From IMG/VR virus record IMGVR_UViG_3300040801_004793, positions 1 to 64,000 of that record: DNA of 64,000 bases, one strand, 5' to 3'. The position numbers and the translations under genes were made by a program. Below are positions 5,295 to 56,057 of the stretch, one piece after another (the first letter of the stretch is position 1; the number at the start of each line of letters is the position of its first letter). Origin of the DNA: a virus. Under the pieces are notes generated by a model that saw only the letters and a list, made by a program, of their open reading frames with translations, was not told the DNA's origin and searched no databases.

Positions 5295-5296
5295 TT

Positions 5297-6055: not shown

Positions 6056-6057
6056 AA

Positions 6058-6849
6058 ATGACTAATGATGATATTCCCAAAATGGTACTAATTCCAGGGG
6101 GAAGCTTCACTATGGGCTCTAATAAAAATTCATACGATACTCCTGAAGAAGAGCCTGCTCATAAAGTCAACGTTTCTTCTTTTCTTCTAGGAAAATATCT
6201 AGTTACTCAAGATCAGTACCTTAGCGTAATGCAATCTAACCCCGCTCATTTTAAAATAAATGGGGGCAATCGGCCAGTTGAAAACGTTTCTTGGGAAGAA
6301 GCTAAGATCTTCTGCTTGAATTTATCAGAAAAAACGGGTCAATCATTTCGTCTACCTAGCGAAGCAGAATGGGAATACGCCTGTCGTGCTGGTACCACAA
6401 CCCCCTTTTATTTTGGAAATACAATAAATACCGATCAAGTTAACTTTGACGGTTATTATCCTTTCTTTGATTCCTCTATTAACGAAACCCTCATACACTA
6501 TGGGGGAGAAAGACGGCTAGAAACTACCCCCGTAGGTTCTTTTCCCCCTAATTCTTTTGGTCTATATGATATGCACGGGAATTTATGGGAATGGTGTGAT
6601 GATGTTTGGCATCCAAATTATAAGGGTGCGCCTATAAAAGGAGGTCCTTGGCTTACTAAAGGTATTACAAATAAAAAGGTGGTACGAGGGGGCGGTTGGG
6701 ATTCATTGGGTATGGAATGTAGATCAGCCTCTCGTCGATATGCTCCTTGTACGTATAAGGGTCTTAATGTCGGAATTCGAGTAGCTTGTAGTCTGGACCC
6801 GCTCACTAGCTTTTTAAACCCGATCGCTTTCCAGTCTCTAGGATTTTAA
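6058..6849 (+). CDS. FGE-sulfatase / C-type-lectin-fold protein, copy 3
   Basis: A protein of 263 residues with FGE-fold motifs (IPGGSFTMGS, VTQDQY, RLPSEAEWEYACRAG, FGLYDMHGNLWEWC, RGGGW, GIRV). The tail is longer and slightly changed (AFQSLGF). It has an insertion between the acidic motif and the YDMHGN motif. The first catalytic cysteine is missing. It is more AT-rich than its neighbours and has a distinct C-terminal loop, so it is an older branch of the array. Confidence 0.88.
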   Translation: MTNDDIPKMVLIPGGSFTMGSNKNSYDTPEEEPAHKVNVSSFLLGKYLVTQDQYLSVMQSNPAHFKINGGNRPVENVSWEEAKIFCLNLSEKTGQSFRLPSEAEWEYACRAGTTTPFYFGNTINTDQVNFDGYYPFFDSSINETLIHYGGERRLETTPVGSFPPNSFGLYDMHGNLWEWCDDVWHPNYKGAPIKGGPWLTKGITNKKVVRGGGWDSLGMECRSASRRYAPCTYKGLNVGIRVACSLDPLTSFLNPIAFQSLGF

Positions 6850-6851
6850 TA

Positions 6852-7592
6852 ATGACTAAGTTACCAAGAATGGCACTAATTCCAGGGGGATCTTTTATGA
6901 TGGGGTCTTCCAAAAATGAAGGAGACCCTAATTCAACCGAGTGTCCTCAACGTGAGGTAACCGTGCCGCAGTTCTGGATGGGGAAATATCCAGTCACCCA
7001 AGCCCAATATGAAGCGGTGATGGGTAAGAATCCCTCCAGGTTTTCTAAGAATGGAGCCAACCGTCCAGTAGAAAGAGTGGGTTGGAATAATGCTATGGCA
7101 TTTTGTCAGAAGCTCTCCCAACAAACTGGGCAGAAATATCGCCTCCCTAGCGAAGCTGAATGGGAATATGCTTGTAGAGCGGGAACGGAGACCCCATTTC
7201 ATTTTGGGGAGACTATCACCACTGATCTTGCTAACTATTGCGGCCTTTCAGAGTATAACGGCGGTCCCACGGGAAAGTTTTCAAAGGCCACGACCGAAGT
7301 AGGTAGTTTTCCAGCCAATGCCTTTGGGCTGTACGACATGCACGGCAATGTATGGGAGTGGTGTCTAGACCGTTGGCACGAGAGCTACTATGGAGCACCA
7401 ACTGACGGCAGTGCTTGGACAACAGGAGGTGATCGCTCCAGACGAATTCTGCGGGGCGGTTCGTGGTACGAATATCCTAAGCATTGCCGCTCGGCCTCAA
7501 GGGGGTCTACCTTGGAAGACACAGCTCTTAATAGCGTAGGTTTTCGGGTTGTTTGTCATTACACACCCCCTTTTAGCAGTTTTGGTTTTTAA
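6852..7592 (+). CDS. FGE-sulfatase / C-type-lectin-fold protein, copy 4
   Basis: A protein of 246 residues with the full motif series (IPGGSFMMGS, PVTQAQY, RLPSEAEWEYACRAG, FGLYDMHGNVWEWC, RGGSW, CRSASRG, GFRV) and the tail PFSSFGF. The C-terminal loop has the CRSA core in protein but uses different codons from copies 5-8, so it does not share their near-identical DNA frame. It starts 2 bases after the previous stop. Confidence 0.9.
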   Translation: MTKLPRMALIPGGSFMMGSSKNEGDPNSTECPQREVTVPQFWMGKYPVTQAQYEAVMGKNPSRFSKNGANRPVERVGWNNAMAFCQKLSQQTGQKYRLPSEAEWEYACRAGTETPFHFGETITTDLANYCGLSEYNGGPTGKFSKATTEVGSFPANAFGLYDMHGNVWEWCLDRWHESYYGAPTDGSAWTTGGDRSRRILRGGSWYEYPKHCRSASRGSTLEDTALNSVGFRVVCHYTPPFSSFGF

Positions 7593-7594
7593 AA

Positions 7595-8368
7595 ATGGTT
7601 ACTAAGGATATTCCTGAAATGGTATTTATCCCCGGAGGGTCTTTTATGATGGGGTCTTCCACGGATGAAAGAAAAAGTAGTTCAAGTGAGAGACCTCGAC
7701 ATAAAGTTACGATACCTGATTTTTACATGGGACGGTATCCAGTAACCCAAGCACAGTATAAATTTATAATGGGTAAAATTCCTTCTCCTTTTTCCCGTCA
7801 AGGAGATAATAAACCCGTAGACTTAGTAAGTTGGAATGAAGCCGTAGCATTTTGCCAAAAGCTCTCAGCGGTCACGTCTAAAACGTATAGATTACCTTCT
7901 GAAGCCGAGTGGGAATATGCCTGTAGAGCAGGAACTACTACGCCTTTTTACTTTGGGAAAACTATTACCACTGACCTTGCTAACTATTGCGGTTGCTCGA
8001 CCTATGGACAAGTGCCAAATAGTCTTTACCGAAAGGAAACTACTACAGTAGGCAGCTTTCCGCCCAATGCCTTTGGTCTTTACGACATGCATGGCAACGT
8101 ATGGGAGTGGTGCCAGGATGTGTGGCACGACAGTTATCAGGGAGCCCCCAGCGATGGCCGTGCTTGGACAGAAGGCAACACCTTCACGCAAGAGAGGCGA
8201 GTTTTACGTGGAGGCTCCTGGAGCGACATTCCGTGGTATTGCCGGTCCGCGTGTCGTTCCAGCAACTATGCCGACAACCGCTACATCCTCAATGGTTTTA
8301 GAGTAGCTTGTGATGACCCCAGCACTCTTCTGTTGCCCTTTACTCCCTTTATCTCCTTTGGATTCTAA
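7595..8368 (+). CDS. FGE-fold protein, copy 5, with DGR-like variable segment
   Basis: A protein of 257 residues with FGE-fold motifs from IPGGSFMMGS to GFRV and the tail PFISFGF. The segment 8213-8299 belongs to the set of four near-identical DNA frames in which differences fall mainly on codon positions 1 and 2. This is the expected mark of adenine-directed retrohoming. In known DGR targets this part of the C-type lectin fold is the ligand-binding face, so the protein is probably a binding protein displayed on the virion or host surface. Confidence 0.9.
   Translation: MVTKDIPEMVFIPGGSFMMGSSTDERKSSSSERPRHKVTIPDFYMGRYPVTQAQYKFIMGKIPSPFSRQGDNKPVDLVSWNEAVAFCQKLSAVTSKTYRLPSEAEWEYACRAGTTTPFYFGKTITTDLANYCGCSTYGQVPNSLYRKETTTVGSFPPNAFGLYDMHGNVWEWCQDVWHDSYQGAPSDGRAWTEGNTFTQERRVLRGGSWSDIPWYCRSACRSSNYADNRYILNGFRVACDDPSTLLLPFTPFISFGF
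8213..8299 (+). other. Candidate DGR variable repeat 1
   Basis: 29 codons from GGC TCC TGG to GGT TTT, alignable without gaps to 9071-9157, 9832-9918 and 10581-10667. The A-free codons TGC CGG TCC and GCC are identical in all four. Codons ending in a fixed C or T differ in their first two bases. No template repeat was found in the window. Confidence 0.7.
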
Positions 8369-8419
8369 AAATATCCGCTTCTCGCTGAGATCTTGTAATA
8401 CTTGTTTTTGAGAAAAAAA

Positions 8420-9193
8420 ATGAAGCGCTTTACAGAACAACTTCATGGGTATATTGTGCCCCTGGAAATGATCCATATCCCCGCTGGCATCTTTCTCATG
8501 GGCTCTCCTGAAAAGGAAAAAGACCGATTTGGAGATGAAGGCCCTCAGCATGAGGTCATCGTCCCCACTTTTTTCATGGGGCGCTACCCCATCACCCAGG
8601 CCCAATATGAAGCGGTGATGGGCACCACCCCCGCCACGAAATATGAGGCTGATCGCTTTGTCGCTCTCAATAAACCCGTTGTGGGGGTGAGCTGGAAGGA
8701 TGCCGTTACCTTTTGCACCGCCCTGGCCCAGCGCACGGGTCGCCCCTATCGCTTACCTTCTGAAGCAGAATGGGAATATGCTTGCCGCGCTGGGACTACA
8801 ACGCCTTTCTACTTTGGGAGCACCCTCACTACCGAGGTTGCCAATTACGACGGTAACTACACCTATGGTGAGGGTCCGACAGGTGAATTTCGCAACGCCC
8901 TCACCTCTGTAGACCACTTTGAGGTTGCTAACTCCTTTGGCCTCTCAGACCTGCACGGCAATATCTATGAGTGGTGTCAGGATACGTGGCACGACAACTA
9001 TGAGGGGGCACCGACCGATGGCTCGGCTTGGGTAGACGGGGGCTATTCAGACCAAAAGGTTATCCGTGGTGGCTCCTGGAACAACATTCCGAGGGATTGC
9101 CGGTCCGCGTATCGCCTCAACCTCAACGCCGACAACCGCTACAACGACTTCGGTTTTCGTGTTTGTTGTGCTGCCCCTAGCAATCTTTTGTAG
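8420..9193 (+). CDS. FGE-fold protein, copy 6, with DGR-like segment and truncated tail
   Basis: A protein of 257 residues from the ATG at 8420 (a TTG start at 8402 is possible). It has full FGE-fold motifs with the variable segment at 9071-9157. It is clearly more GC-rich than its neighbours. It ends at a TAG, and reading on in frame would give SFVSFEF before the next TAA, which matches the FxxFGF tail of the other copies. The tail has therefore been cut off by a nonsense change. Its ATG is also separated from the previous stop by about 50 bases, unlike the 2-base spacing elsewhere. Confidence 0.87.
   Translation: MKRFTEQLHGYIVPLEMIHIPAGIFLMGSPEKEKDRFGDEGPQHEVIVPTFFMGRYPITQAQYEAVMGTTPATKYEADRFVALNKPVVGVSWKDAVTFCTALAQRTGRPYRLPSEAEWEYACRAGTTTPFYFGSTLTTEVANYDGNYTYGEGPTGEFRNALTSVDHFEVANSFGLSDLHGNIYEWCQDTWHDNYEGAPTDGSAWVDGGYSDQKVIRGGSWNNIPRDCRSAYRLNLNADNRYNDFGFRVCCAAPSNLL
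9071..9157 (+). other. Candidate DGR variable repeat 2
   Basis: The segment is aligned codon for codon with the other three. It has the most AAC codons (AAC AAC after TGG; AAC and TAC AAC later), so it may be the closest to the template sequence. The core TGC CGG TCC GCG is unchanged. Confidence 0.7.
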
Positions 9194-9219
9194 TCCTTCG
9201 TCTCCTTTGAATTCTAAAA

Positions 9220-9966
9220 ATGATTAGTAAATGTATTCCTGAAATGGTATTTATTCCAGGGGGATCTTTTATGATGGGAGTCTCCACAAATGAAAGAGGG
9301 GAAAGTGAGTCTGAGAAACCTCAACATAAAGTTACTGTACCCGCATTTTACATGGGACGATATCCGGTCACCCAAGCCCAGTATAAATTCATAATGGGTG
9401 AAAACCCTTCTCATTTTTCTCATCAAGGAGATAATAAGCCTGTAGAAAGAGTGAGTTGGAATCAAGCCACGGCATTTTGTCAGAGGCTCTCAGAGGTCAC
9501 GTCTAAAAAATATAGATTACCCTCCGAAGCGGAATGGGAATATGCTTGTCGGGGCGGGACGACAACCCCCTTTCACTTTGGGGAAACTATCACCTCTGAC
9601 CTTGCCAACTATGACGGTAGCGTGATCTACGGAGAAGAGCCACGAAGTACTTACCGAAAGGAAACCACTGAGGTCGGTAGTTTTCCACCCAATGGTTGGG
9701 GCCTTTATGACATGCATGGTAACGTGTGGGAATGGTGTGATGATGAATGGCATGGTAATTACCAGGGAGCTCCCATAAACGGATCACCTTGGTTAGAAGA
9801 CGATGATAGAGGTAGAAGAGTTCTACGTGGCGGCTCCTGGGACTACGGCCCGAGGCTTTGCCGGTCCGCGTTTCGCTACTTCGTCTATGCCGACCAAAGC
9901 TGGGACGATACCGGTTTTAGAGTAGCCTGTGATTACAAACTTCCTTTTCAAGCTTTTGGATTCTAA
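9220..9966 (+). CDS. FGE-fold protein, copy 7, with DGR-like variable segment
   Basis: A protein of 248 residues with the same motif order and the tail PFQAFGF. The N-terminal half is nearly identical in protein to copies 5 and 8 (EMVFIPGGSFMMG), showing recent duplication, while the C-terminal segment 9832-9918 is strongly changed. An Asp/Arg-rich insert (DDDRGRR) precedes the variable segment. The start ATG follows the residual tail codons of copy 6. Confidence 0.9.
   Translation: MISKCIPEMVFIPGGSFMMGVSTNERGESESEKPQHKVTVPAFYMGRYPVTQAQYKFIMGENPSHFSHQGDNKPVERVSWNQATAFCQRLSEVTSKKYRLPSEAEWEYACRGGTTTPFHFGETITSDLANYDGSVIYGEEPRSTYRKETTEVGSFPPNGWGLYDMHGNVWEWCDDEWHGNYQGAPINGSPWLEDDDRGRRVLRGGSWDYGPRLCRSAFRYFVYADQSWDDTGFRVACDYKLPFQAFGF
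9832..9918 (+). other. Candidate DGR variable repeat 3
   Basis: Same frame and length as the other three segments. Examples against repeat 1 are GAC TAC for AGC GAC and TAC TTC GTC for TCC AGC AAC. The third base stays C in these codons while bases 1 and 2 vary. Confidence 0.7.
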
Positions 9967-9968
9967 AA

Positions 9969-10715
9969 ATGACTAATAATGATATTCCTGAAATGGTATT
10001 TATTCCAGGAGGATCTTTTATGATGGGGTCTTCCAAAAATGAAAGAGACGGAAGTTCGTCTGAGAAACCTCAACATAAAGTTACTGTACCCGCATTTTAT
10101 ATGGGACAGAGCCCGGTCACCCAGAACCAGTATCAAGCAGTGATGGGTAAAAACCCTTCTTATTTTTCTCATCGGGGAGATAATAAACCCGTAGAATTAG
10201 TAAGTTGGAACGACGCCATAACATTTTGCCGAAAGCTCTCCCAACAGACAGGTCGGAAATATCGCTTACCTTCTGAAGCAGAATGGGAGTACGCTTGCCG
10301 AGCTGGAACCACAACACCTTTTTATTTTGGGGAAAGCATCACCACTGACCTTGCCAACTGTGCCGGTATCCCAGGCAATGGCGTCATGGCGGCAAAGGAT
10401 AATTACAGACAGAAAACCACTGAGGTCGGTAGTTTTCCACCCAATGCCTTTGGTCTCTACGATATGCACGGAAATGTATGGGAATGGTGTGAGGATGTGT
10501 GGCACAGCAACTATGAGGGGGCTCCTACAGACGGTAGTGCCTGGACAGAAGGCAACAACCAAGAGCGAGTTTTACGTGGAGGCTCCTGGAACGACATTAC
10601 GGGGATTTGCCGGTCCGCATTTCGCTACAGCAGCTATGCCGTCTGCCGCGATGTCGTCGGCGGTTTTAGAGTAGCTTGTGATTACACACCTCCTTTTAGC
10701 AATTTTGGATTCTAA
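9969..10715 (+). CDS. FGE-fold protein, copy 8, with DGR-like variable segment
   Basis: A protein of 248 residues with the complete motif set and the tail PFSNFGF. The variable segment is at 10581-10667. The DNA flanking the segment (GTTTTACGTGGAGGCTCC upstream, GGTTTTAGAGTAGC downstream) is almost identical to that of copy 5, as expected if both were rewritten from one template. It starts 2 bases after the stop of copy 7. Confidence 0.9.
   Translation: MTNNDIPEMVFIPGGSFMMGSSKNERDGSSSEKPQHKVTVPAFYMGQSPVTQNQYQAVMGKNPSYFSHRGDNKPVELVSWNDAITFCRKLSQQTGRKYRLPSEAEWEYACRAGTTTPFYFGESITTDLANCAGIPGNGVMAAKDNYRQKTTEVGSFPPNAFGLYDMHGNVWEWCEDVWHSNYEGAPTDGSAWTEGNNQERVLRGGSWNDITGICRSAFRYSSYAVCRDVVGGFRVACDYTPPFSNFGF
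10581..10667 (+). other. Candidate DGR variable repeat 4
   Basis: Fourth aligned segment. It carries GTC, TGC, GAT GTC GTC GGC where others have GAC, AAC, TAC ATC CTC AAT. These are changes at positions that are A in at least one sibling. The A-free codons are preserved, except for one GCG to GCA. Confidence 0.7.
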
Positions 10716-10720
10716 AAATA

Positions 10721-11428
10721 ATGACTTCTCTGATTGAGGTAGTAACAATTCCTTCAGGTACTTTCCTAGGTAAAGACTCTAATCAAATTTACGTACCTGG
10801 TTTTTATCTTTCTAAATATCTGATAACACGAAAAATCTGGAATTACGTAACACAGTTACCAGAAGTAAACACTCCTTTAGTTTCGACTGTAGATATTCCC
10901 GAGCTTTACCAGAATCCCGTACGAGGGGTGTCTTACTGGGATGTTTTAGAGTTTTGTAATCGAATCTCCAGTAAGACAGATCAGTATAGATTACCTACTG
11001 AAATTGAATGGGAATATGCTTGTAGAGCTGGCACTACAACAGCTTTCTACTTTGGAGGTATAGGAGACGCAAGTATAGAAAAATTTAATCATCTCGATTT
11101 GAAACTCTCTGCTACCTCTCACTTTCAAAGCCATAATAGTATTCATCCACATCAAGTTAATCGTGTTAATTATTACCCTCCAAATCCCTGGGGTTTACAT
11201 GATATGCATGGTAATTTGTGGGAGTGGTGTAAAAATAGTAAAGAAAATAAAACGGAACAAGAATCAGATAACTGGCCTGCAATTCTCAAAGGGGGATCTT
11301 GGAGAAGTCCCGCAAGGTCTTGTCAATCCAGTTCAATAATTTCTTTCCCTAAAAATTACAGGAACACTCACGTTGGATTTAGAGTCGTTCTAGAGAGACC
11401 CACTCAATTTGGTGCTTTTGGATTTTAA
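10721..11428 (+). CDS. FGE-fold protein, copy 9, divergent
   Basis: A protein of 235 residues and AT-rich. The N-terminal motif is reduced (IPSGTFLG), the middle is diverged (RGVSYWDVLEFC), but RLPTEIEWEYACRAG, WGLHDMHGNLWEWC, KGGSW and GFRV remain. The tail is QFGAFGF, keeping the family's C-terminal FGF. The variable-loop region shares no codon pattern with copies 5-8. It is probably a fixed, non-diversified relative. Confidence 0.87.
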   Translation: MTSLIEVVTIPSGTFLGKDSNQIYVPGFYLSKYLITRKIWNYVTQLPEVNTPLVSTVDIPELYQNPVRGVSYWDVLEFCNRISSKTDQYRLPTEIEWEYACRAGTTTAFYFGGIGDASIEKFNHLDLKLSATSHFQSHNSIHPHQVNRVNYYPPNPWGLHDMHGNLWEWCKNSKENKTEQESDNWPAILKGGSWRSPARSCQSSSIISFPKNYRNTHVGFRVVLERPTQFGAFGF

Positions 11429-11433
11429 AAAAA

Positions 11434-11646
11434 ATGACAAAAAAGCGTAAAACGAAAAAAGAATTAGAACAAGAAAACGAGAAGCTTAAAGAAAAAATAG
11501 AAAAAAATCAAAGAGTAGTAGAAGCTGCTAAGGGAGAAGTTGAGGTTTTGAGGGGAACATTACAAAACTTTGTGGCCCCAGAAAACAGAGAGGCTTACCA
11601 CACTCTAGCGGATAACATTAATTCTATACTCGATGAGACTAAGTAG
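11434..11646 (+). CDS. Small coiled-coil protein
   Basis: A protein of 70 residues, very rich in Lys and Glu (KKELEQENEKLKEKIEKNQ), so a long coiled coil is predicted for the first 50 residues. It follows copy 9 of the array within 6 bases and ends before a terminator. It could be a trimerising or tethering partner for the FGE-fold proteins, but this is inferred only from position. Confidence 0.7.
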   Translation: MTKKRKTKKELEQENEKLKEKIEKNQRVVEAAKGEVEVLRGTLQNFVAPENREAYHTLADNINSILDETK

Positions 11647-11668
11647 TTTTTTTTCGTTGGTGAACCAC

Positions 11669-11694
11669 GGGGGTATAAAAATACCCCCTTTCTT
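11669..11694 (+). terminator. Rho-independent terminator after the FGE-fold array
   Basis: GGGGGTAT and ATACCCCC form an 8-bp stem with an AAAA loop, followed by TTTCTT. It ends the array transcript that includes the coiled-coil gene. The tenth FGE-like gene starts 4 bases later. Confidence 0.8.
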
Positions 11695-11697
11695 AAA

Positions 11698-12381
11698 ATG
11701 AAAATTTTTTTAAAAAGCTCTCACTCAAAGGAGTTTTGTAAAATTCCATCGGGAACTTTTCTCCTATTTGAAAAGCAACTTTTTATTCCCGAATTTTACC
11801 TCGCTCTTAATCCAATCTCGATTTTTGATTTTCACTTAATTTTTGATATTCCCTTGAGTCCAAAATATCAGGAGTCTAATGGATTTCTTGCAAAAGTAAC
11901 ACCTTACATTGGAATAAGACCTTTTGAAGCAGAAAAAATTTGCAGCTTTTTAAATTTTCAAACGGGACTTAAAAAATTTAGAGTACCCACAGAAAACGAA
12001 TGGGAATATGCTTGCCGAGCCGGTAGCACTAGCCCTTTTTATTTTGGTGATGAAGACCACCCCGCTGTTGAGGATCTTGTAAATTGCGAGAGTAATTATA
12101 AACTTCCCTGGTCTTTTCTTGCTTTTACCGAAGAGCGTCATCCCTACGGTCTTAGAGGTATGCACGGAAACGTACGAGAGATATGTCTCAGTCGATACCA
12201 CAAATCGCCTGCAAAAAAAGGGTATTGCTGTCGTGGAGGAGATTACACATCTAAAAAAAATATGTGCTACTCTGCATCAAGGCTGCCTTGTCTCGACTTT
12301 GGAAGAAAAGGGAAGCAGGGATTTAGACCCCTATTAGAAAATATAGATCTATTGAATACAGGAAACCCTTCAATTCTGTAG
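11698..12381 (+). CDS. FGE-fold protein, copy 10, degenerate
   Basis: A protein of 227 residues. It keeps FRVPTENEWEYACRAGS, FYFGDED, GLRGMHGNVREIC, CCRGGD and GFRPL, but lacks the N-terminal IPGGSFMMGS signature and the FGF tail. The middle is strongly AT-biased. It is a divergent relative of the array, separated from it by a terminator, and probably under separate control. Confidence 0.8.
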   Translation: MKIFLKSSHSKEFCKIPSGTFLLFEKQLFIPEFYLALNPISIFDFHLIFDIPLSPKYQESNGFLAKVTPYIGIRPFEAEKICSFLNFQTGLKKFRVPTENEWEYACRAGSTSPFYFGDEDHPAVEDLVNCESNYKLPWSFLAFTEERHPYGLRGMHGNVREICLSRYHKSPAKKGYCCRGGDYTSKKNMCYSASRLPCLDFGRKGKQGFRPLLENIDLLNTGNPSIL

Positions 12382-32039: not shown

Positions 32040-32091
32040 AGAGGCAATTTAGTTTCTCTACTTAGGGGGCCTATCCTCTTTAGGCCTCGTT

Positions 32092-32101
32092 CGTGTACAC
32101 G
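32092..32101. promoter_or_regulatory. Palindrome in the leader of the Ubl cassette
   Basis: CGTGTACACG is a perfect 10-base palindrome, 21 bases before the ATG at 32123. Another short stem (GGCCTA/TAGGCC) lies upstream at about 32069-32087. Either may be an operator or part of a terminator for the preceding gene. This is only suggestive. Confidence 0.3.
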
Positions 32102-32122
32102 TCTAAAACACAAAAACACATC

Positions 32123-32542
32123 ATGTCTAACCAAAACAACAACTCCGCTGTCCAGAACCTCGCTGAAGCTCTGGCTAACCTGATCTCTACTACCGCTCCG
32201 GCTAACGGCAATGTTGTGCCTACTGTTGTTCCGCCCACGCCCAGCTACGCGGTGAGCCAAACTGCGGCGGTGGCTCCTGTAGCAACTGTTGTGTTGCAAG
32301 GCACCGTTAAGCAGCCATCTCTGAGGACGTTCCAGAGCTGGCAGCATCTAGGCTACACCTTGGGCCGTATCAAGGACGAGACCTTCGGTACGGAAATTCG
32401 CGCCGACGAAGCTTCCTTAAGCATCAACGGCCAAGCTCCTCAGCCTCTAAGCCTGACGAGCCTCCTGCCCGAAGCCGTTAACGCGGAGGGTATCACCTCT
32501 ATCCGCCTAACCTACAGTGTCACCTCTGGCACCAACGGTTAG
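32123..32542 (+). CDS. Candidate ubiquitin-like modifier
   Basis: A protein of 139 residues from the ATG at 32123. The first 60 or so residues are a low-complexity Ala/Pro/Val/Thr-rich linker. The last 75 read as a small alpha/beta domain with strands at each end and the C-terminus RLTYSVTSGTNG. An exposed tail ending in Gly is what E1 enzymes adenylate. From memory, PRTRC-type Ubl proteins end similarly in GTKG. It lies directly upstream of JAMM, E2-like and E1-like genes. The codon choice is more GC-rich than its neighbours, suggesting high expression. The Ubl fold itself is inferred. Confidence 0.55.
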   Translation: MSNQNNNSAVQNLAEALANLISTTAPANGNVVPTVVPPTPSYAVSQTAAVAPVATVVLQGTVKQPSLRTFQSWQHLGYTLGRIKDETFGTEIRADEASLSINGQAPQPLSLTSLLPEAVNAEGITSIRLTYSVTSGTNG

Positions 32543-32559
32543 TAGTTCATAGGGCTGGG

Positions 32560-32640
32560 GCTCCCCTCTAAGAGCCCCACTGTTTAGGTTACGTCAAAAT
32601 TTGACAGTCAGGAGGGGCCTCAAAACCCCTCCTTTTCTTT
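32560..32640 (+). terminator. Two hairpins with T-run between Ubl and JAMM genes
   Basis: GGGGCTC/GAGCCCC (about 32558-32579) is followed by GGAGGGG/CCCCTCC (32611-32632) and TTTTCTTTTT. The second is a typical intrinsic terminator. It would let the modifier be made in excess over the downstream enzymes by partial read-through. Confidence 0.75.
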
Positions 32641-32670
32641 TTGTCAACAACACTACTCACTAAACTGATA

Positions 32671-34038
32671 ATGACACAGCAAGAAGAAGCAAAAATCACT
32701 CCGAAGATTACATCCTCTGGATCTTTCATTCGAAGAGGCGATGAAATTCAACCCCTGATTCAGTACTTTGGGGGCCGTTACTTTTGTCCAATGCAGCATC
32801 CTGTATTTCTGGGCTACACGGAGATGACGGACCAGGATCGCCACATGACTAATGAAGAGTTTTTGACTTTTCAAGATCTCAACTTCTGGAATCTTCAACC
32901 AAGTCCAGTAGATCCTTCCAAAGTAATTACTTCTACGGGAACTTTTCAAAAAGTCCCTAAAGAAGATTGGATCAAGACGATCAAATTATTTGCTCACTTT
33001 TGTAGAAATGATGGATTCCCTAATGAGTTAGAAGTGGGCTTAATTTTGGCTCTTCACAATGAGAGTCAGACCTTAAGGCTTCTTGTACCCAAACAGTCTG
33101 TGACAAAAGCCAGTGTTAACTGGACAATTTCCGACATTAAATCTGATACCCAAGTAATGGACTTGGATGGAAACCTCATCGTAATGTCGGATTATACTCC
33201 CGTAGGTGTTTTTCATAGCCATAACACTTTCGGGGCCTTCCCTTCTTCAGTAGATAACACTTGTGAGGTAAAAGACACTGCGGGAAAGATTATTCCCACG
33301 GGTTTCCATATGATTCTGGGAAACTTCAAAAACTACGAAAACTACGAGTTTGATGAACCCACTTTTGATACTTACAGTAGCTTCTCTCATCTGGGAGTTC
33401 GCCACCAAGTAACAAGTGAAAAAACCTTTGAGTTCTTTGTGAGTGATGACTTTTCAGTGGAGGAGTACCAACAGAATACCTTTAGCACAAACATTCTAAC
33501 AATCATCACCAGGTCAACTGTTTGGTCGGGCAAAGTTTATACAGGTAAGTCTTATGCGACGAGGCCTTACTCGGGATCTGCCAATTACGTAAACTACCGC
33601 CCGTTTAGAAATCCTGAGCATGAGCAAGCGTACAACAGGATTAGTAAAAAGCACAGAAAAGCTTCTGCTGCTAATCAAGCCTGGAGAACTTCTACAGTAC
33701 CCGCTCTTATCAGGACGGATGCAAAAGAAGCTCTGATTGAGTACGCTATTAGTTGCATGTATGACATCTACGCCACGCTCGTAGATGACTTGAGTGCCGA
33801 CCCTGTGGACTTAATGAAAGAGTTCGAAGCTTGGCATCAGGAAAGTCTTGGTTCAAACAATTCTCTAGAAATGCTCTCGTCTGAGATGTATACTCCTTTA
33901 CCATCTGAGATGTATACCCCTTTGGCAAGTGATGACCCTCTATCTAATGAAGACTACTGGACATCTTCTATTGATGGAGGAGGTCTGGTAGACAACTCAG
34001 CGGATGTAGACAATCCTTTTTACTATCGAGGAAACTAA
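32671..34038 (+). CDS. JAMM/MPN+ metallopeptidase (deubiquitinase-like)
   Basis: A protein of 455 residues from the ATG at 32671 (a TTG at 32641 lies in the terminator). It has a complete JAMM motif: an upstream Glu in NELEVGLIL (119-121), then VGVFHSHNTFGAFPSSVD (HSH at 182-184, Asp at 195). This is the HxHx7Sx2D pattern of Rpn11/CSN5-type isopeptidases and bacterial JAB proteins of Ubl operons. It is expected to cleave or trim the modifier. The long C-terminal region is unique and holds a short repeat (SEMYTPL twice). It is followed 1 base later by the E2-like gene. Confidence 0.85.
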   Translation: MTQQEEAKITPKITSSGSFIRRGDEIQPLIQYFGGRYFCPMQHPVFLGYTEMTDQDRHMTNEEFLTFQDLNFWNLQPSPVDPSKVITSTGTFQKVPKEDWIKTIKLFAHFCRNDGFPNELEVGLILALHNESQTLRLLVPKQSVTKASVNWTISDIKSDTQVMDLDGNLIVMSDYTPVGVFHSHNTFGAFPSSVDNTCEVKDTAGKIIPTGFHMILGNFKNYENYEFDEPTFDTYSSFSHLGVRHQVTSEKTFEFFVSDDFSVEEYQQNTFSTNILTIITRSTVWSGKVYTGKSYATRPYSGSANYVNYRPFRNPEHEQAYNRISKKHRKASAANQAWRTSTVPALIRTDAKEALIEYAISCMYDIYATLVDDLSADPVDLMKEFEAWHQESLGSNNSLEMLSSEMYTPLPSEMYTPLASDDPLSNEDYWTSSIDGGGLVDNSADVDNPFYYRGN

Positions 34039-34039
34039 A

Positions 34040-35065
34040 ATGGCGATTGATGACAGTTACACAGTAACGGTTAACCCAAGACCAGACACAATTAAAGGCC
34101 GATTTTGTTTAAGTCACGCACCTACAGCTATTGGTGTACTTCACAGTATTGGGGAACAAGGAACATTCAGTCTTACTGGAGCCTTTATGCCTAGCTATAT
34201 TAGGTATATGGCTTTCCGAGGAATGATTGCTACAGATCTGTTTTGGCAGTTTTGTACTTCTTGTCCTTTGTACCATCAACAAGCTTGTTCTGGAGGAGCC
34301 CCTTTAATTGCTCGGGGAAGAAACGCCCGTCGCAGGTCGGCCAATTTTGTAAATGCAGAAGGCCGTACTCAAACCTGGGACTACGTTGAAGATAATTGCA
34401 AGATGAATTACACGGCCACAGAGCGGGCGGGAAGAACTAATATTACTATTCCCGACCACTTTGCAGCAATTAACGATGGTAGATTTGCGTGGTTTGCAGC
34501 GGAGTATATTCGAAACGAATTTCGATTTACTCCGCTTCGTATGTTTAATACGTACGAATCGGGAAATGTTTGTTTGGGAGAGAACCGTCTTCGGAGCAAC
34601 GCTTCTCTTCCAGAAGTCTATGAAACGTTTCTTAACGGAACAGTCAACAACGATCTCAGACCACTGGCTGCATCTCGGCACTCAAAGACGACTTTAGAGT
34701 GGTGTCAGACCTTTAATTTAGAAGAGCTCAAAGAGGAGGATGACTATCCAGAGAGAACTATAACACAGTTACCTTGCCTTTCCACGACAAACTCAAGAAG
34801 ATTATTTCACGTTTTGCCGCCAAATGTGGCTTTTGTGACTTATCTTCGACTTTCTTCTCCTAACGAATACGTAGACCTATCTCCAGAAGAAAAACAACCT
34901 CGTATTTACCGTGAAAGGTTGTATGTAGCAATTGCAGCTATGTACGATCCCCTCGGAGAAGACCGAGAAGCATATACCTATGTATATGTTCACAACCCCA
35001 CCAAAATAGTGGAAGATGCAGAGCTTCTTAACCGGGTTCAATACGAAGCTGGTAGATCATCATAA
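34040..35065 (+). CDS. E2-like ubiquitin-conjugating protein
   Basis: A protein of 341 residues. The segment TPLRMFNTYESGNVCLGENR around Cys178 matches the active-site context of E2 enzymes (a His/Asn-rich lead, G.(V/I)CL) and, from memory, that of PRTRC protein B (N.Y..G.VCLG). Cys178 would carry the modifier as thioester. An N-terminal cluster (FCTSCPLYHQQAC) might bind a metal. It begins 1 base after the JAMM stop and ends 50 bases before the E1-like gene. Assignment rests on this motif plus context, so fold confirmation matters. Confidence 0.65.
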   Translation: MAIDDSYTVTVNPRPDTIKGRFCLSHAPTAIGVLHSIGEQGTFSLTGAFMPSYIRYMAFRGMIATDLFWQFCTSCPLYHQQACSGGAPLIARGRNARRRSANFVNAEGRTQTWDYVEDNCKMNYTATERAGRTNITIPDHFAAINDGRFAWFAAEYIRNEFRFTPLRMFNTYESGNVCLGENRLRSNASLPEVYETFLNGTVNNDLRPLAASRHSKTTLEWCQTFNLEELKEEDDYPERTITQLPCLSTTNSRRLFHVLPPNVAFVTYLRLSSPNEYVDLSPEEKQPRIYRERLYVAIAAMYDPLGEDREAYTYVYVHNPTKIVEDAELLNRVQYEAGRSS

Positions 35066-35115
35066 ACCGTCGCCACTCTGAAACCAGTCCATCTAAAACA
35101 TAGCAGAGGTCAAGC

Positions 35116-36054
35116 ATGAAAACTTTCGTTCCTGATGAGATCATCCAAATTGGATGCGGAGGCACAGGCTCCCGTTTAGTAGAAGAACTAAAATTTTGGG
35201 TTCGTGGAAATCTAGTTGATCTGCCCAGGTCTTTTTATTACACCTTGGTAGATTTTGATACTGTCGGAGATAGTAATCTAAATCGACAGCTCTTTTATCC
35301 ATGGGACCTGGGTAAGTCAAAAGCTCACGTCTTTGTGGAGCGTTTACGGAATTTGATTAAAATCAGGCAAATTCCAGAACCAATTAACCAAGATACTGTC
35401 AACTTCATCTTTGACGAGGAGCGGCTAAATAAAAAACTAGTGGTTATTTGCTCGGCGGATAACCCTCTAGTTGTTAAACAGGTCATGTTAAAGTTGCTTG
35501 CCGATGCAAGAAACGACTACCTGTGGATCTTTACTGGGGCCAGTCTAGTTAATCACACCTTACATACTGGGGAGTATCTGGAAACGGGGGTTGGACAGGC
35601 TTATGCGTATGGTGTAGTAAACCAAACACCCCTGTTTCCTGTTCCCCCGAATGAGGCCCTGCTAGACATTATGCGGGCTGTGGGTTATGGTCCCACTTCT
35701 ACGGGTAACAACTGTGGGGTAACAACCTCAGGAGGAGCCCAAACGCCCCTCATGAATCACAGTTGTGTAAATGCTGTGTTACAAATTTTCAATGCTCTCT
35801 TTAAGCATGGTAAGTTTATTCCAGCCATCTACTTTGTGGATGGAGTAAGCACCACCTATGCCGAGGCTATTGATGTGGCTACGTTGATGGGTACAGCATC
35901 ACTAGAGCAGCTTTCTGCTTTAGACTCAATTAGTCGGACTCTTTCTTCTCAATCGGCGTCTGAAAATGATGACTATGACTATGAGGACGAGGACGAAGAG
36001 GATGAGGATGAGGAAGAGGAGTACGATGATTACTTCGACGATGATGAGCACTAA
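35116..36054 (+). CDS. ThiF/E1-like adenylating enzyme
   Basis: A protein of 312 residues. It has a Rossmann nucleotide loop IGCGGTGS at 12-19, LVDFDTVGDSNLNRQLF at 44-60 and DLGKSKA at 64-70, the classic E1/ThiF signatures for ATP binding and adenylation of a C-terminal Gly. Cys200 (GNNCGVT) and Cys217 are candidates for the thioester cysteine. It ends in a very acidic tail of about 30 residues (Asp/Glu/Tyr). It activates the modifier at 32123 in the proposed pathway. A hairpin follows the stop. Confidence 0.87.
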   Translation: MKTFVPDEIIQIGCGGTGSRLVEELKFWVRGNLVDLPRSFYYTLVDFDTVGDSNLNRQLFYPWDLGKSKAHVFVERLRNLIKIRQIPEPINQDTVNFIFDEERLNKKLVVICSADNPLVVKQVMLKLLADARNDYLWIFTGASLVNHTLHTGEYLETGVGQAYAYGVVNQTPLFPVPPNEALLDIMRAVGYGPTSTGNNCGVTTSGGAQTPLMNHSCVNAVLQIFNALFKHGKFIPAIYFVDGVSTTYAEAIDVATLMGTASLEQLSALDSISRTLSSQSASENDDYDYEDEDEEDEDEEEEYDDYFDDDEH

Positions 36055-36074
36055 CTAGTGTTGACTTCTAGATG

Positions 36075-36098
36075 GTAGGGGTAGTAAAATACCCCTAC
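36075..36098 (+). terminator. 9-bp hairpin after the E1-like gene
   Basis: GTAGGGGTA and TACCCCTAC form a perfect 9-bp stem with a GTAAAA loop, 20 bases after the stop. No T-run follows. It may attenuate read-through into the next small gene. Confidence 0.6.
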
Positions 36099-36125
36099 TC
36101 GCCTGTAAACCTAAAACAAAAACAA

Positions 36126-36449
36126 ATGAAACTACCACCTGATCTACTGCGAGTGTTACACGAGAATCGGTCCTCTTTACCCCCATCGGTTTTAGAAATG
36201 ATACCGACTCTCTTTGTTAAGGAAGACTTTATTGATCTGGAGGAAGATTCTAGAGAAAAAGTACTAGCACTAATTCGGGATATTTGCTTTATTCTTTTGG
36301 AAGAATTTCCCGAGTCCGATGAGGATAATCCTCAGATGGACAAATTAGCGTCCTTAGAAGATAAGCATCTAATTGCCCTTCTTAAACATTCAATGAAAGC
36401 TGACAGTTTAAAGCTTACAAAGCGAGGCAAAAGAGCTTCCGAAGATTAA
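36126..36449 (+). CDS. Small hypothetical protein at the end of the Ubl cassette
   Basis: A protein of 107 residues from the ATG at 36126. It is helical and acidic in the middle (EDSREKVLALIRDICFILLEEF) with a basic end (KLTKRGKRASED). Function is unknown. It lies between the hairpin after the E1-like gene and a terminator, so it may belong to the cassette. Confidence 0.6.
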   Translation: MKLPPDLLRVLHENRSSLPPSVLEMIPTLFVKEDFIDLEEDSREKVLALIRDICFILLEEFPESDEDNPQMDKLASLEDKHLIALLKHSMKADSLKLTKRGKRASED

Positions 36450-36459
36450 ACTGAAATAG

Positions 36460-36479
36460 GGGGAAGGTTGTCCTTCCCC
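36460..36479 (+). terminator. Hairpin terminator
   Basis: GGGGAAGG and CCTTCCCC form an 8-bp stem with a TTGT loop. A TTCTTTTTT run follows a few bases later, just ahead of the dUTPase start. Confidence 0.7.
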
Positions 36480-36502
36480 TCCTACGTCTATTCTTTTTTA
36501 TT

Positions 36503-37264: not shown

Positions 37265-39001
37265 ATGGATAAGAATACTGGTATACGGGTAGTAACCTCC
37301 TGTTCTAACCCTCTAACATTAACCTACCTAGCTGCTCATAGGGATTATTCCGAATGTTTATCGGTTATGGATTCTCCTCCCTCTTATTTACCTAAAACAG
37401 AGGAAGAAGCGGGGGAAAAAATTCTTAGAATGCTTCTAAAAAAGAGGCACTTTGGTCCGTTAGAGCACCCTCACGCTACAGTAGAAGTCGTAGGCTTTCC
37501 CCACAGCGTTGCAGTTCAGGCCAGAACTCATAGAATTGCCTTTTGCCTGGATGAAGATACCCGTATTCAATTTTCTCGCAAGCCTCAAAAAAGAGGGAGA
37601 AGAGTACAAAATTATTCTGTTCCATTAAAAGATCTAGCTAATCTATGGTTTAACGGAATCAAAGATCAACGAGATCCCTACTTTGGAAGGCACTATGTTA
37701 GGGATAAAAGACTTCGGTATTTTAATCCCTCCACTAAAAAGATTGAATACACCAACATTACTAATATTTATAATACGGGAGTTAAAACTCTATATAAAGT
37801 TTCTACTGAAGGAAATAATTTCATTCAAGGTTCTGAAGACCATAAAATTCTAACAACCAACTCTGATCTATCTTCTTTTGAGTGGAAAGAGATTAAAAAT
37901 CTTACAACAGAAGATTATGCAATTCGCATGTCTTATAAACCTAATAATCCACCAGTAAAAGAAGATATTACTTTTACTGAAGAACAGTTGGAATCTGAGG
38001 AGTGGCGTCCAGTAGTTGGTTTTGAAAGATACTACCAGGTTAGTAACTTAGGTCGTTTGCGAAGTTTATTTGATTCGGAGCCTAAACTAAAATCTGTTGT
38101 CACAGGCCCAACGGGTTATAAATATGCTTCTCTTCATAGAAAAGAAATCATCTACTTACATACAGAAGTATTAAAAGCTTTTGTAGGACCTCCGCCGGAA
38201 GGAAAAAATAAGGCTTTACATAAAGACGACAATCGTAAGAATAACTGTCTTTCTAACTTATATTGGGGAGATAGCTCTGACAACCAAGCAGATCTAACGA
38301 GAAATGCCGGAGGCAGATCTTTTCAACCCGTACCGGCTAAAATTATTTCTATTGAATGTGTAGGCGAAAAACAGACCTATGACATTGAAGTAAAAAGTAA
38401 ATATAGAAACTTTTTTGCTAATAATCTCGTAGTTCATAATAGCTTTGATGTACAAAGTCAAAGGTATACGGGAAAAAGAGTAGTTGATTTAATAAATATT
38501 TTTCTAGAGTTATTTCCCGATAGAGATCCCAATGGTGAAGGTAGAAGGCTAATAATTTCAAAACTTCTACAGAACGAAGAACTCTCTGAAAAAGAAAGAC
38601 ACTTTGTAGATCAGTTACAAAAAGTTTTTTACGTTAGACCTGCTGGAAAATATCATAATAGGCAAGGGAAAAGATACGAAGTTAGCGAAGAAGAAGTCTT
38701 AAAAAGATACTTCTTTAACAAAATTTCATCCTCTCTTGACTACTATGATCTTGTTGTTACTAAGGGTGTGGCTGAAGAAGATGCCAGGGATGATCTGCCT
38801 CAAGGAATAAGGCAAGGTTTTTTTATGACCTTTAACCTTAGATCTTTGATGCATTTTCTTGATATGAGGTATAAAGCCGATGCCCAGCCGGAAATTATCT
38901 ACTTGGGAGAACTTTTAATAGAATTTTTTAAGGTCTGGGCAGGGCCGGTAGCAGAGTTCTATATCAAAAATAGGGCAAATAAAAACAATGTTGCACCCTA
39001 A
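37265..39001 (+). CDS. thyX: ThyX thymidylate synthase interrupted by an intein
   Basis: A precursor of 578 residues. The mature enzyme (93 + 186 = 279 residues) makes dTMP from dUMP using FAD and methylene-tetrahydrofolate. The signature RHRxxSxNxxSxRY is split: RTHRIAF comes before the intein and SFDVQSQRY after it. Residues 94-392 are the intein, starting with Cys and ending with VVHN before Ser. It lies downstream of dUTPase in a nucleotide-synthesis block. Splicing is required for activity, because the insertion cuts the active site. Confidence 0.9.
   Translation: MDKNTGIRVVTSCSNPLTLTYLAAHRDYSECLSVMDSPPSYLPKTEEEAGEKILRMLLKKRHFGPLEHPHATVEVVGFPHSVAVQARTHRIAFCLDEDTRIQFSRKPQKRGRRVQNYSVPLKDLANLWFNGIKDQRDPYFGRHYVRDKRLRYFNPSTKKIEYTNITNIYNTGVKTLYKVSTEGNNFIQGSEDHKILTTNSDLSSFEWKEIKNLTTEDYAIRMSYKPNNPPVKEDITFTEEQLESEEWRPVVGFERYYQVSNLGRLRSLFDSEPKLKSVVTGPTGYKYASLHRKEIIYLHTEVLKAFVGPPPEGKNKALHKDDNRKNNCLSNLYWGDSSDNQADLTRNAGGRSFQPVPAKIISIECVGEKQTYDIEVKSKYRNFFANNLVVHNSFDVQSQRYTGKRVVDLINIFLELFPDRDPNGEGRRLIISKLLQNEELSEKERHFVDQLQKVFYVRPAGKYHNRQGKRYEVSEEEVLKRYFFNKISSSLDYYDLVVTKGVAEEDARDDLPQGIRQGFFMTFNLRSLMHFLDMRYKADAQPEIIYLGELLIEFFKVWAGPVAEFYIKNRANKNNVAP
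37544..38440 (+). mobile_element. Intein with NUMOD4-HNH homing endonuclease
   Basis: 299 residues. Block A begins CLDEDTRI. Block B is like GSEDHKILT, with the usual His. The C-terminal end is FANNLVVHN, followed by extein Ser. In the middle are a NUMOD4-like part (EEWRPVVGFERYYQVSNLGRLRS) and an HNH part (VLKAFVGPP...ALHKDDNRKNNCLSNLYWG). Inteins with this endonuclease class spread by cutting intein-free alleles. Insertion in the most conserved motif of ThyX fits that habit. Confidence 0.9.
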
Positions 39002-54089: not shown

Positions 54090-56057
54090 ATGAATTTTAA
54101 AGACTACTTTCATGAATCTATAGGCCTTGCTGTATGTAACTCTTCTTTTGAGTACTTGTGGCACTCTGCTTCGTGGCCTCAATTATTTGGTAAAAAAGAA
54201 AAATCCTACATAGGAGAATCTCATTTTAAATTTTTAGAAACCGTTCCTTATGCTTGGGAAAAAGATTACAATCAAGTATTGAGTACTTCTGGTTATTCCG
54301 TAACTTATAAACCTGAATGGTTTAATAACCAGGCTCTTCTTCATTCTGTTTCAGTGTTAGAAAATAATCTAATTCTGATTCTTTGCTTAAACGTTTCAGA
54401 AGTTACAAGGTTTAAAGAATCTCTCTATAAATTTCAAGATTGCAGTATGACAGGTAAAGCAATCTTTAGAAAAGAAGGAGAAAATTTTAGAATAGTCTAC
54501 TGGAATAAATATGCCGCTACTAAAAATCCGGGAATAAATCTTGAAGGCTCTATCTTATCTAATACTTTTTTTTCGAATGCTAGGTTAGAGTTGGAAGAAG
54601 AAAAAACTTTTATAGATTTTTGTTTCGAAGTTTTAGAAACTCAAACTTCTGATCTTACAGAAATAAAGTTAGAGGCCTTAGAAAAGTATTATCTTATTAC
54701 GCTCTTTCCCATAAGTGAAACAGAATTGGGTTGTGAATGGTTCGATATAAGTTCTAAAATTGAATTTTTTCAAAAAACACAATTTGAATTAATACATGAT
54801 AACTTAACAGGCCTATTTAATAGAAAACTTTTAGGCAGTCAATCAATAGAGTTTGACTACATTCTCTTTTTAGACTTAGATAATTTTAAAAGTGTCAATG
54901 ATTTTTATACCCACTCTGTTGGAGATAAACTTTTACAAATAGTAGCTCAGAGAATTTCTCAAGTTGCTAAAAACCAAGTTGCAGTTAGAGTTTCTGGTGA
55001 TGAGTTTTTCATTCTAGTAAAGGGTAAAACCGAGAAAGAGGTTTTTGAGCTTGCTGTTGAAATCTGTAGTGTCCTAAAACAACCTTATCTAATTCAAAGC
55101 TTTATTATTAAAAATGTGTCTTGTTCTTGTGGTATAGCTAAGTTTTCAAAGGATGTAGATACTACGGTAAGAAAAGCGGATCTTGCTATGTACCAAAGTA
55201 AGGCTTTAGGTAAGTCTGACAAAGAGGCTTCTGGTATTCCTATTTGGTACGAAGAGAGTATGGGAGACTCCCATACTAGACAACATAAACTTTTAAAACT
55301 TCTTTATCAAGCAATTCAAAAAAATGCTTTTGATATAGTTTTACAACCTTTTGTAAATCTTCAAGAATTAAACGAAGAAAATCCTAAAAAAACACCGAAG
55401 GTAGGATACGAAGTTTTAGTTCGTTGGAATACTCCTTCTGGACCTATTCCTCCGTCTGAGTTTATTCCTATAGCTGAAGATCACGGCTATATTACAGCAA
55501 TCACTCTGTTAGTGTTATCTCAAGCCTGTAAAGCCTGTAAAGAAATAAATAGAGTCTCTAAATACCCTCTTTATCTATCTGTAAACGTATCAGGTCAAGA
55601 CTTGTCTAATAAAAGACTCAAAGATAGCATTGATATGTTGCTAGAAGAGTCGGGATTAGACTATAATCTAATTAAGTTTGAGATTACTGAGTCTGTTATT
55701 CCTTCCATACAAGAGGCAGAAAATACAGTTCAGTATTTAAATTCAGAGGGTCTCAAAAGTTTGTTAGATGATTTTGGAACTAAGGGAAGCTCTCTAACTC
55801 TTATGTTTAGTCTTTCTGTAGAAGGAATCAAAATTGATAGAGATTTCATTATTAACTGGACTGATTCCGTACAACATATTATTGGGCTAGGACACAGTAA
55901 AGGACTGTCTGTTGTTTGTGAAGGAGTAGAGAGTTTAGAAATTGCACAAAAGTTAAAACGCGCCAAAGCCGATATTGGACAAGGCTTTTTATTCGGAATG
56001 CCTTTATCTCTGGAAGATACTATTGAGGAATTACTCGAAAATGAAGAAAACAATTAA
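54090..56057 (+). CDS. PAS-like-GGDEF-EAL cyclic-di-GMP protein
   Basis: A protein of 655 residues. The N-terminal 240 residues look like two PAS-type sensor modules. Next is a GGDEF domain (LTGLFNRK, DLDNFKSVND, RVSGDEFF; the A-site reads SGDEF, a variant seen in active cyclases). The C-terminal EAL domain has YEVLVRW, NVSGQDL, FEITES, LDDFG, KIDRDF and GQGFLFGMP, with the metal residues present. It would make and/or cleave cyclic-di-GMP in the host cell, altering motility, adhesion or development. No membrane segment is seen, so it should be cytosolic. Confidence 0.9.
   Translation: MNFKDYFHESIGLAVCNSSFEYLWHSASWPQLFGKKEKSYIGESHFKFLETVPYAWEKDYNQVLSTSGYSVTYKPEWFNNQALLHSVSVLENNLILILCLNVSEVTRFKESLYKFQDCSMTGKAIFRKEGENFRIVYWNKYAATKNPGINLEGSILSNTFFSNARLELEEEKTFIDFCFEVLETQTSDLTEIKLEALEKYYLITLFPISETELGCEWFDISSKIEFFQKTQFELIHDNLTGLFNRKLLGSQSIEFDYILFLDLDNFKSVNDFYTHSVGDKLLQIVAQRISQVAKNQVAVRVSGDEFFILVKGKTEKEVFELAVEICSVLKQPYLIQSFIIKNVSCSCGIAKFSKDVDTTVRKADLAMYQSKALGKSDKEASGIPIWYEESMGDSHTRQHKLLKLLYQAIQKNAFDIVLQPFVNLQELNEENPKKTPKVGYEVLVRWNTPSGPIPPSEFIPIAEDHGYITAITLLVLSQACKACKEINRVSKYPLYLSVNVSGQDLSNKRLKDSIDMLLEESGLDYNLIKFEITESVIPSIQEAENTVQYLNSEGLKSLLDDFGTKGSSLTLMFSLSVEGIKIDRDFIINWTDSVQHIIGLGHSKGLSVVCEGVESLEIAQKLKRAKADIGQGFLFGMPLSLEDTIEELLENEENN

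Follow-up and report, generated by a model that had tools for sequence, protein, structure and literature searches.

Type 6d operons, predicted in 2006 in bacteria, cyanobacteria included, encode a ubiquitin-like protein (Ubl), a rapidly diverging helical protein, an E2-like protein, a JAB peptidase and an E1; the Ubl is characterised by a conserved C-terminal Gly and the E2 by a downstream His (Iyer, Burroughs and Aravind 2006; PMC1779556). E1, E2 and JAB activities are also found in CBASS Cap2/Cap3 (PMC10097602), Bil-type operons serve anti-phage ubiquitination in bacteria (summarised in PMC11354881), and lambda has the Ubl-JAB tail genes TAPI/TAPK (PMC1779556). Here we describe a set of this kind in viral DNA. 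The window analysed is the first 64 kb (64,000 nucleotides) of a 121,016-bp IMG/VR record (IMGVR_UViG_3300040801_004793; G000 below), and in it a gene for a candidate modifier is followed by genes for a JAMM peptidase, an E2-like protein and an E1/ThiF-like protein. Most probably this cassette belongs to the PRTRC/type-6d ubiquitin-like conjugation cassettes, as a divergent and rearranged representative of their large-tailed-phage branch. The module is common in large bacterial viruses and is not a first for phages. What is unusual in the window is the placement of JAMM before E2, the lack of a detectable PRTRC-F, the extended modifier, a cysteine insertion in the E2 and the extreme divergence.

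Layout of the cassette

Four open reading frames (ORFs) of 139, 455, 341 and 312 amino acids (aa) and a further one of 125 aa, all on the + strand, occupy positions 32123-36449. The features are as follows.

32066-32088, +, hairpin 5' of the modifier gene (RNA fold of 32040-32122: -19.7 kcal/mol, z -2.8)
32123-32542, +, candidate ubiquitin-like modifier, 139 aa (ORF; C-terminal end SVTSGTNG)
32557-32578, +, hairpin directly 3' of the modifier gene (RNA fold)
32610-32643, +, intrinsic-terminator-like hairpin (32610-32633, 8-bp stem) with T-rich tail, separating the modifier gene from the enzyme genes
32671-34038, +, JAMM/JAB metallopeptidase, PRTRC_A-like, 455 aa (an alternative upstream TTG start at 32641 is possible)
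33025-33027, +, upstream acidic residue E119 of the JAMM protein
33214-33255, +, JAMM motif HSHNTFGAFPSSVD, residues 182-195
34040-35065, +, E2-like (PRTRC_B-related) protein, 341 aa
34253-34288, +, E2 cysteine cluster CTSCPLYHQQAC, residues 72-83
34571-34573, +, predicted E2 catalytic Cys178 (invariant in 36 aligned relatives)
35116-36054, +, E1/ThiF-like activating enzyme, 312 aa, its C-terminal ~30 residues mostly acidic
35713-35715, +, predicted E1 catalytic Cys200 (invariant column in E1 alignments)
36072-36449, +, 125-aa ORF with no assigned family, 17 bp 3' of the E1 gene and within the same hairpin-bounded unit
36459-36480, +, hairpin closing the cassette unit (RNA fold)

The first-pass annotation, made from the letters of the window, had described four genes running in one direction between hairpins; the ORFs and both bounding hairpins were found, as was every motif it had named in the proteins. 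It had also placed a terminator right after the modifier gene, and the hairpin with its T-rich tail at 32610 is indeed there. This site is the strongest in the terminator list (8 pairs, 6 of them GC, and a T tail); the scan as a whole returned 6 terminators where 5.6 were expected (shuffle mean) and is not above chance. The 125-aa protein had no family match among the public family models, and its PADLOC matches were weak. A CRISPR-repeat-like Rfam match at 32914 fell below the Rfam threshold and was set aside.

Three enzymes of the PRTRC kind

Profiles were built from plasmid PRTRC operons and from phages Arash, D69, KLEB27-3, ME3 and BgVeeders33, with the window excluded, and were iterated with hmmsearch over 16,238 ORFs from 96 sequences. 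The E1, JAMM and E2 profiles each match a single ORF in this 121-kb genome, and the three ORFs are adjoining genes. A search with PRTRC and ThiF profiles had been proposed as a check in the first-pass annotation, and profiles of this type recovered all three enzymes.

The E1 was recovered at 2.6e-28. It carries GCGGTGS (residues 13-19), DFDTVGDSNLNRQ and DLGKSKA, by which the gene had been recognised in the first place, together with the conserved Cys200; the alignments show no variation in the nucleotide loop, DxDxV..N..RQ, K69, D115 or Cys200. Its match to Pfam ThiF (1.6e-9) is the sole one in the cassette to pass the curated cut-off of a public model, and its best NCBIfam match is PRTRC_ThiF (TIGR03736, 4.3e-17), as for an E1 of the PRTRC kind. 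The closest solved relatives are the NEDD8 and ubiquitin E1s.

The JAMM protein was recovered at 1.2e-10 by the JAB profile. Its motif HSHNTFGAFPSSVD is a complete HxHx7SxxD and, with the upstream acidic E119, gives the full E..HxHx7SxxD pattern of JAB/JAMM peptidases, in agreement with the perfect motif reported for it earlier.

The E2-like protein was recovered at 1.4e-5 (24.6 bits; 4.4e-6 in an earlier round), as compared to a maximum of 7.9 bits over 2,000 shuffled E2 sequences, and hhalign gave an E of 2e-5. TIGR03737 (PRTRC_B) is matched by 27 of the 36 aligned relatives. Invariant among these 36, in window numbering, are Pro138, Asn170, Cys178 and Gly180, and the predicted catalytic Cys178 lies within the motif NTYESGNVCLGENR. 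An NTYxxGN[MV]CxGxN motif with NNDL downstream is of the large-phage-branch type, and the window's NTYESGNVCLGEN is closest in kind to that branch (locus L045: NTYSEGNMCYGGN). At the position of the downstream His of type 6d the window has VNNDL instead, like FNxDL in the phage branch. In a model built on the 36-row alignment, blocks of core residues 131-200 reach a predicted local distance difference test score (pLDDT) of 85-92, and the rest is poor (mean 57.8); the core shows a four-strand meander before the Cys178 loop and helices after it, as expected for a UBC domain. The insertion that holds CTSCPLYHQQAC, with Cys72, Cys75, His79 and Cys83, is absent from all other E2s in the set, and this cluster possibly binds metal. 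A profile match of the E2 to YopM (7e-4) was judged unlikely to be real, as it spans 60 positions outside the active site.

The candidate modifier

The 139-aa protein consists of an Ala/Pro/Val/Thr-rich N-terminal extension of ~50 residues and a domain of ~87 residues, and SGTNG is its exact C-terminus. It alone among 19,206 non-Ubl ORFs ends in GT[KNRHQ]G, an ending found in 30 of 93 Ubl-family ORFs. Family Ubl domains end in GTKG or GNKG, and the GTNG of the window supplies the C-terminal Gly of a small Ubl. N-terminally extended Ubls also occur in loci L043 and L086, the former (L043:4889-5278) having an N-terminal zinc-ribbon-like CxxC...CxxC domain and a GTKG end. The GC content at third codon positions (GC3) of the modifier gene is 0.63, the highest of 123 genome ORFs (median 0.30; capsid gene 0.35), which suggests an origin separate from, or more recent than, that of the rest of the genome. 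The best reading of this protein as the modifier is drawn from its gene position and its C-terminus.

Relatives in plasmids and large phages

The plasmid neighbourhoods of the best E1 matches are PRTRC operons with the order E-C-F-B-A-ThiF; examples are those of Azonexus (L007), Leptolyngbya (L005) and Gloeothece (L006). Scanning with the E1 alignment returned 118 relatives from IMG/VR, of which 80 were kept, and another 28 from bacterial genomes, and single-protein scans of IMG/VR for close relatives of the E1, E2, JAMM protein and modifier returned none. The order Ubl-E2-JAB-E1 is present in 77 of 120 loci, usually with one or two genes between Ubl and E2. The order JAB-E2-E1, in place of the usual Ubl-(F)-E2-JAB-E1, is found among the 120 loci in the window only.

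Three traits mark the large-phage branch: a bare Ubl end, an FNxDL-type E2 motif and a JAMM protein no shorter than 320 aa. All three are combined in 26 loci, the window included, many of them on contigs of 100 kb or more. Plasmid-form Ubls continue for 57-107 residues beyond GTKG/GNKG, where the large-phage forms mostly end. Several loci have poly-Ubl genes of two to five tandem copies (L011:2397-3185, L013:718-1425, L075:3592-4698 and L051-L055), each copy ending in GTKG, or in GVKG in Bacillus phage KLEB27-3; such tandem genes are consistent with a modifier that is used in large amounts.

Complete sets are present in the deposited genomes of Salmonella phage Arash, Vibrio phage D69, Bacillus phage KLEB27-3 and BgVeeders33, as well as in dozens of IMG/VR contigs, mostly unannotated. 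The ME3 and KLEB27-3 records carry single-gene annotations (PRTRC_A, ThiF). The first-pass annotation knew of no full set from a cyanobacterial phage: none was found in cyanobacterial phages here either, and the phages just named show that this does not extend to phages in general. The open-access literature yielded no paper on complete sets of the type 6d kind in phages, which is weak evidence of absence.

The family records hold further observations. In Arash (OQ632216), a likely Ubl gene of 66 aa with a GTKG end (L009:107-307) is unannotated, and gp251c overlaps it in another frame. The same record labels the E2 and E1 'structural protein', which is at most a lead towards the virion. Four relatives have a JAMM gene that is interrupted within the catalytic HSH motif (L014:2718-5843; L019/L020:5484-7923; L021:6243-7925), and in Acinetobacter phage ME3 additional ORFs occupy the gap together with a group I intron (Rfam RF00028, 81 bits). 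Interruptions of this kind, within the HSH motif and with an intron in ME3, are a pointer to the JAMM gene of the family being conserved and expressed. Locus L015 is filed as an Acinetobacter phage; the genes around its moeB are all bacterial housekeeping genes, and it was excluded from the phage cassettes.

Proposed mechanism

Since the catalytic residues are intact, reversible tagging is the best reading of the cassette. The steps that follow are all drawn from family biochemistry. The modifier would be made ready to use, its GTNG end bare and with no tail to trim. The ThiF-like E1 would adenylate the terminal Gly and then hold the modifier as a thioester on Cys200, from which it would pass to Cys178 of the E2; the E2 would couple the modifier, during infection, to amino groups on at least one protein. 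Because the C-terminus of the modifier is already bare, the JAMM protein is best taken as a deconjugase that would remove the tag, with no role in precursor maturation. In the poly-Ubl phages and the tailed plasmid forms it would both mature and deconjugate. The terminator 3' of the modifier gene would yield modifier in excess of the enzymes.

A full tagging and untagging pathway in a phage had been put forward in the first-pass annotation. The set of Ubl, JAMM, E2 and E1 genes, its PRTRC type and the presence of the catalytic residues support this in part; the beta-grasp fold of the modifier is putative. We consider it unlikely that the pathway is, more specifically, a cyanophage counterpart that mirrors Bil, with the E2 cysteine cluster as a metal-binding, E3-like element and with host defence or virion proteins as the marked targets.

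Alternative explanations

A number of results weigh against assignment to the PRTRC/type-6d family. PRTRC_ThiF gives the E1 62 bits as compared to a curated equivalog cut-off of 145, the Prok-JAB match (8.8e-5, 22.8 bits) is just short of its curated cut-off of 25, and the window E2 itself has no PRTRC_B match in the public family models. Foldseek of the E2 model against the PDB returned nothing significant (UbcH7 ranks 12 and 20, E 1.8-2.5), so the UBC fold rests on homology and not on this comparison; the E2-like gene of the first-pass annotation is upheld by its profile match and invariant Cys178. Some family motifs (DxGN) are lost in the window cassette, and the E1 sits on a very long branch (4.94 changes per column); a loss or change of function is possible for these two reasons. 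Given that branch length, no origin is claimed for the E1, and an E1 tree that groups the window with L102, L105 and L070 was not taken as a placement. Helical PRTRC-F was not detected, and the families that intervene between Ubl and E2 in relatives match no ORF here. It is possible that a PRTRC-F gene is present and has diverged beyond detection in this genome. Additionally, hmmsearch and hhalign detect no similarity between the modifier and the Ubl profile, none of the public family models matches it, and the confidence of its single-sequence model is low (pLDDT 47.7). With a profile-profile probability of 0.2%, homology of the modifier to Ubls is not claimed from sequence.

The missing profile similarity and the poor model speak for a reading in which the three enzymes truly form a conjugation set and the 139-aa gene encodes an unrelated small protein of foreign composition beside them, as do its GC3, the highest in the genome, and a length and N-terminal extension unlike those of most Ubls. 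Set against this are the C-terminal end, unique among non-Ubl ORFs and at the expected site before the enzymes, the existence of extended Ubls in L043 and L086, and the element order of the low-confidence model (strand-helix-strand-strand-short helix-strand), which is that of ubiquitin. We regard an unrelated protein as quite unlikely. The modifier proposed in the first-pass annotation remains a candidate, with its family-like GTNG end and its place directly before the enzymes.

Ubl C-terminal glycines are also used in thiolation, and ThiF/MoeB-type models do match the E1. The small protein could on these grounds be a ThiS/MoaD-like sulfur or cofactor carrier, with the E2-like and JAMM proteins as accessories and no protein conjugation. 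This is very unlikely: PRTRC_ThiF fits the E1 far better than ThiF/MoeB (4e-17 vs 3e-10), the cassette encodes an E2-like protein that has an invariant Cys, the nearest solved relatives of the E1 are conjugating E1s, and family scans of the neighbourhood showed no thiamine or molybdopterin genes. A decaying, non-functional cassette acquired from a plasmid or another phage, to which the extreme E1 branch length, the changed gene order without an F gene and the above-median GC3 of the E1 and JAMM genes might point, is highly improbable given four open frames, retained catalytic residues and spacings, and hairpins in place.

The phage genome

The record contains terminase, major capsid, Mu-F/portal-like and tape-measure genes and is on that account assigned to a tailed phage. 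For the major capsid protein the closest counterparts are in Pseudanabaena phages PA-SR01/Pam2 (31% identity over 92%), which makes a cyanobacterial host likely without proving it. The cassette E1 had no match in PA-SR01 or Pam2, and megablast of the DNA against phage records found no similarity; a 79% match of 72 bases to phage DNA over the E1 acidic tail was dismissed as low complexity.

Elsewhere in the window, eight FGE-sulfatase-like genes (46-71% mutual identity) form an array at 4557-12381, in a GC-richer stretch of the phage, and there are two further, more distant copies. A ThyX carrying an HNH intein is encoded at 37265-39001, and a GGDEF-EAL protein with SGDEF and EVL motifs, possibly a cyclic-di-GMP enzyme, at 54090-56057. 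Beyond the window, the large terminase carries a LAGLIDADG insert (L004:1268-3988), and close to its gene a 724-aa protein has about four PAS domains (G000 108037-110208; L004:4037-6208). The + strand genes of the terminal region (G000 111673-121016) have a high GC3 (0.49-0.59) that differs from the remainder of the genome.

Comparison with known systems

The literature searched has hardly examined the use of Ubl conjugation by phages; in bacteria, such conjugation is known as anti-phage defence. The window and its 26-locus branch suggest that many large phages carry their own tagging and untagging set, in some cases polyubiquitin-like. The targets of phage tagging can be tested directly in those members that have been isolated (Arash on Salmonella, D69 among Vibrio phages, KLEB27-3 on Bacillus). 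Judging by the version in the window, such a cassette may do without the usual gene order, the helical partner and much of its sequence while retaining the catalytic core and the GTxG tail.

Lambda TAPI/TAPK are likewise a phage-borne Ubl and JAB; they come without E1 or E2 and belong to tail assembly. Cap2 of CBASS is an E1-E2 fusion acting on a cGAS-like enzyme. The cassette shares the E1, E2 and JAB activities of Cap2/Cap3 but has separate E1 and E2 genes, no cGAS-like enzyme was seen, and the PADLOC E1-E2 fusion models match only the adenylation domain of the window E1, weakly. Bil (BilABCD) has a two-domain E1 and acts in host defence. Like the cassette, it groups a Ubl, E1, E2 and deconjugase in a few genes linked to the conflict between phage and host, whereas the window E1 is, by comparison with the description of Bil, a single-domain 312-aa PRTRC-kind ThiF protein, and in a phage.

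The PRTRC/6d operons are closer, with separate genes for a Ubl with C-terminal Gly, an E2-like protein with conserved Cys, a JAB and a ThiF/E1, the three enzymes being homologous by profile. The window differs in its order (Ubl-JAMM-E2-E1), in having no detected helical F gene, in a Ubl that lacks the 57-107 extra residues of the plasmid forms, in an E2 with NNDL in place of His, and in scores under the curated cut-offs. Finally, in the large-phage cassettes (Arash, L009; D69, L011; KLEB27-3, L013; IMG/VR contigs L045, L051-L055 and L075), E2 precedes JAMM, Ubl and E2 are separated by one or two genes, and the proteins are only ~20% identical to those of the window. These cassettes are like that of the window in their bare or tandem GTKG Ubls, their N.Y..GN.CxGxN-like and FNxDL E2 motifs, their long JAMM proteins and their occurrence in large tailed phages.

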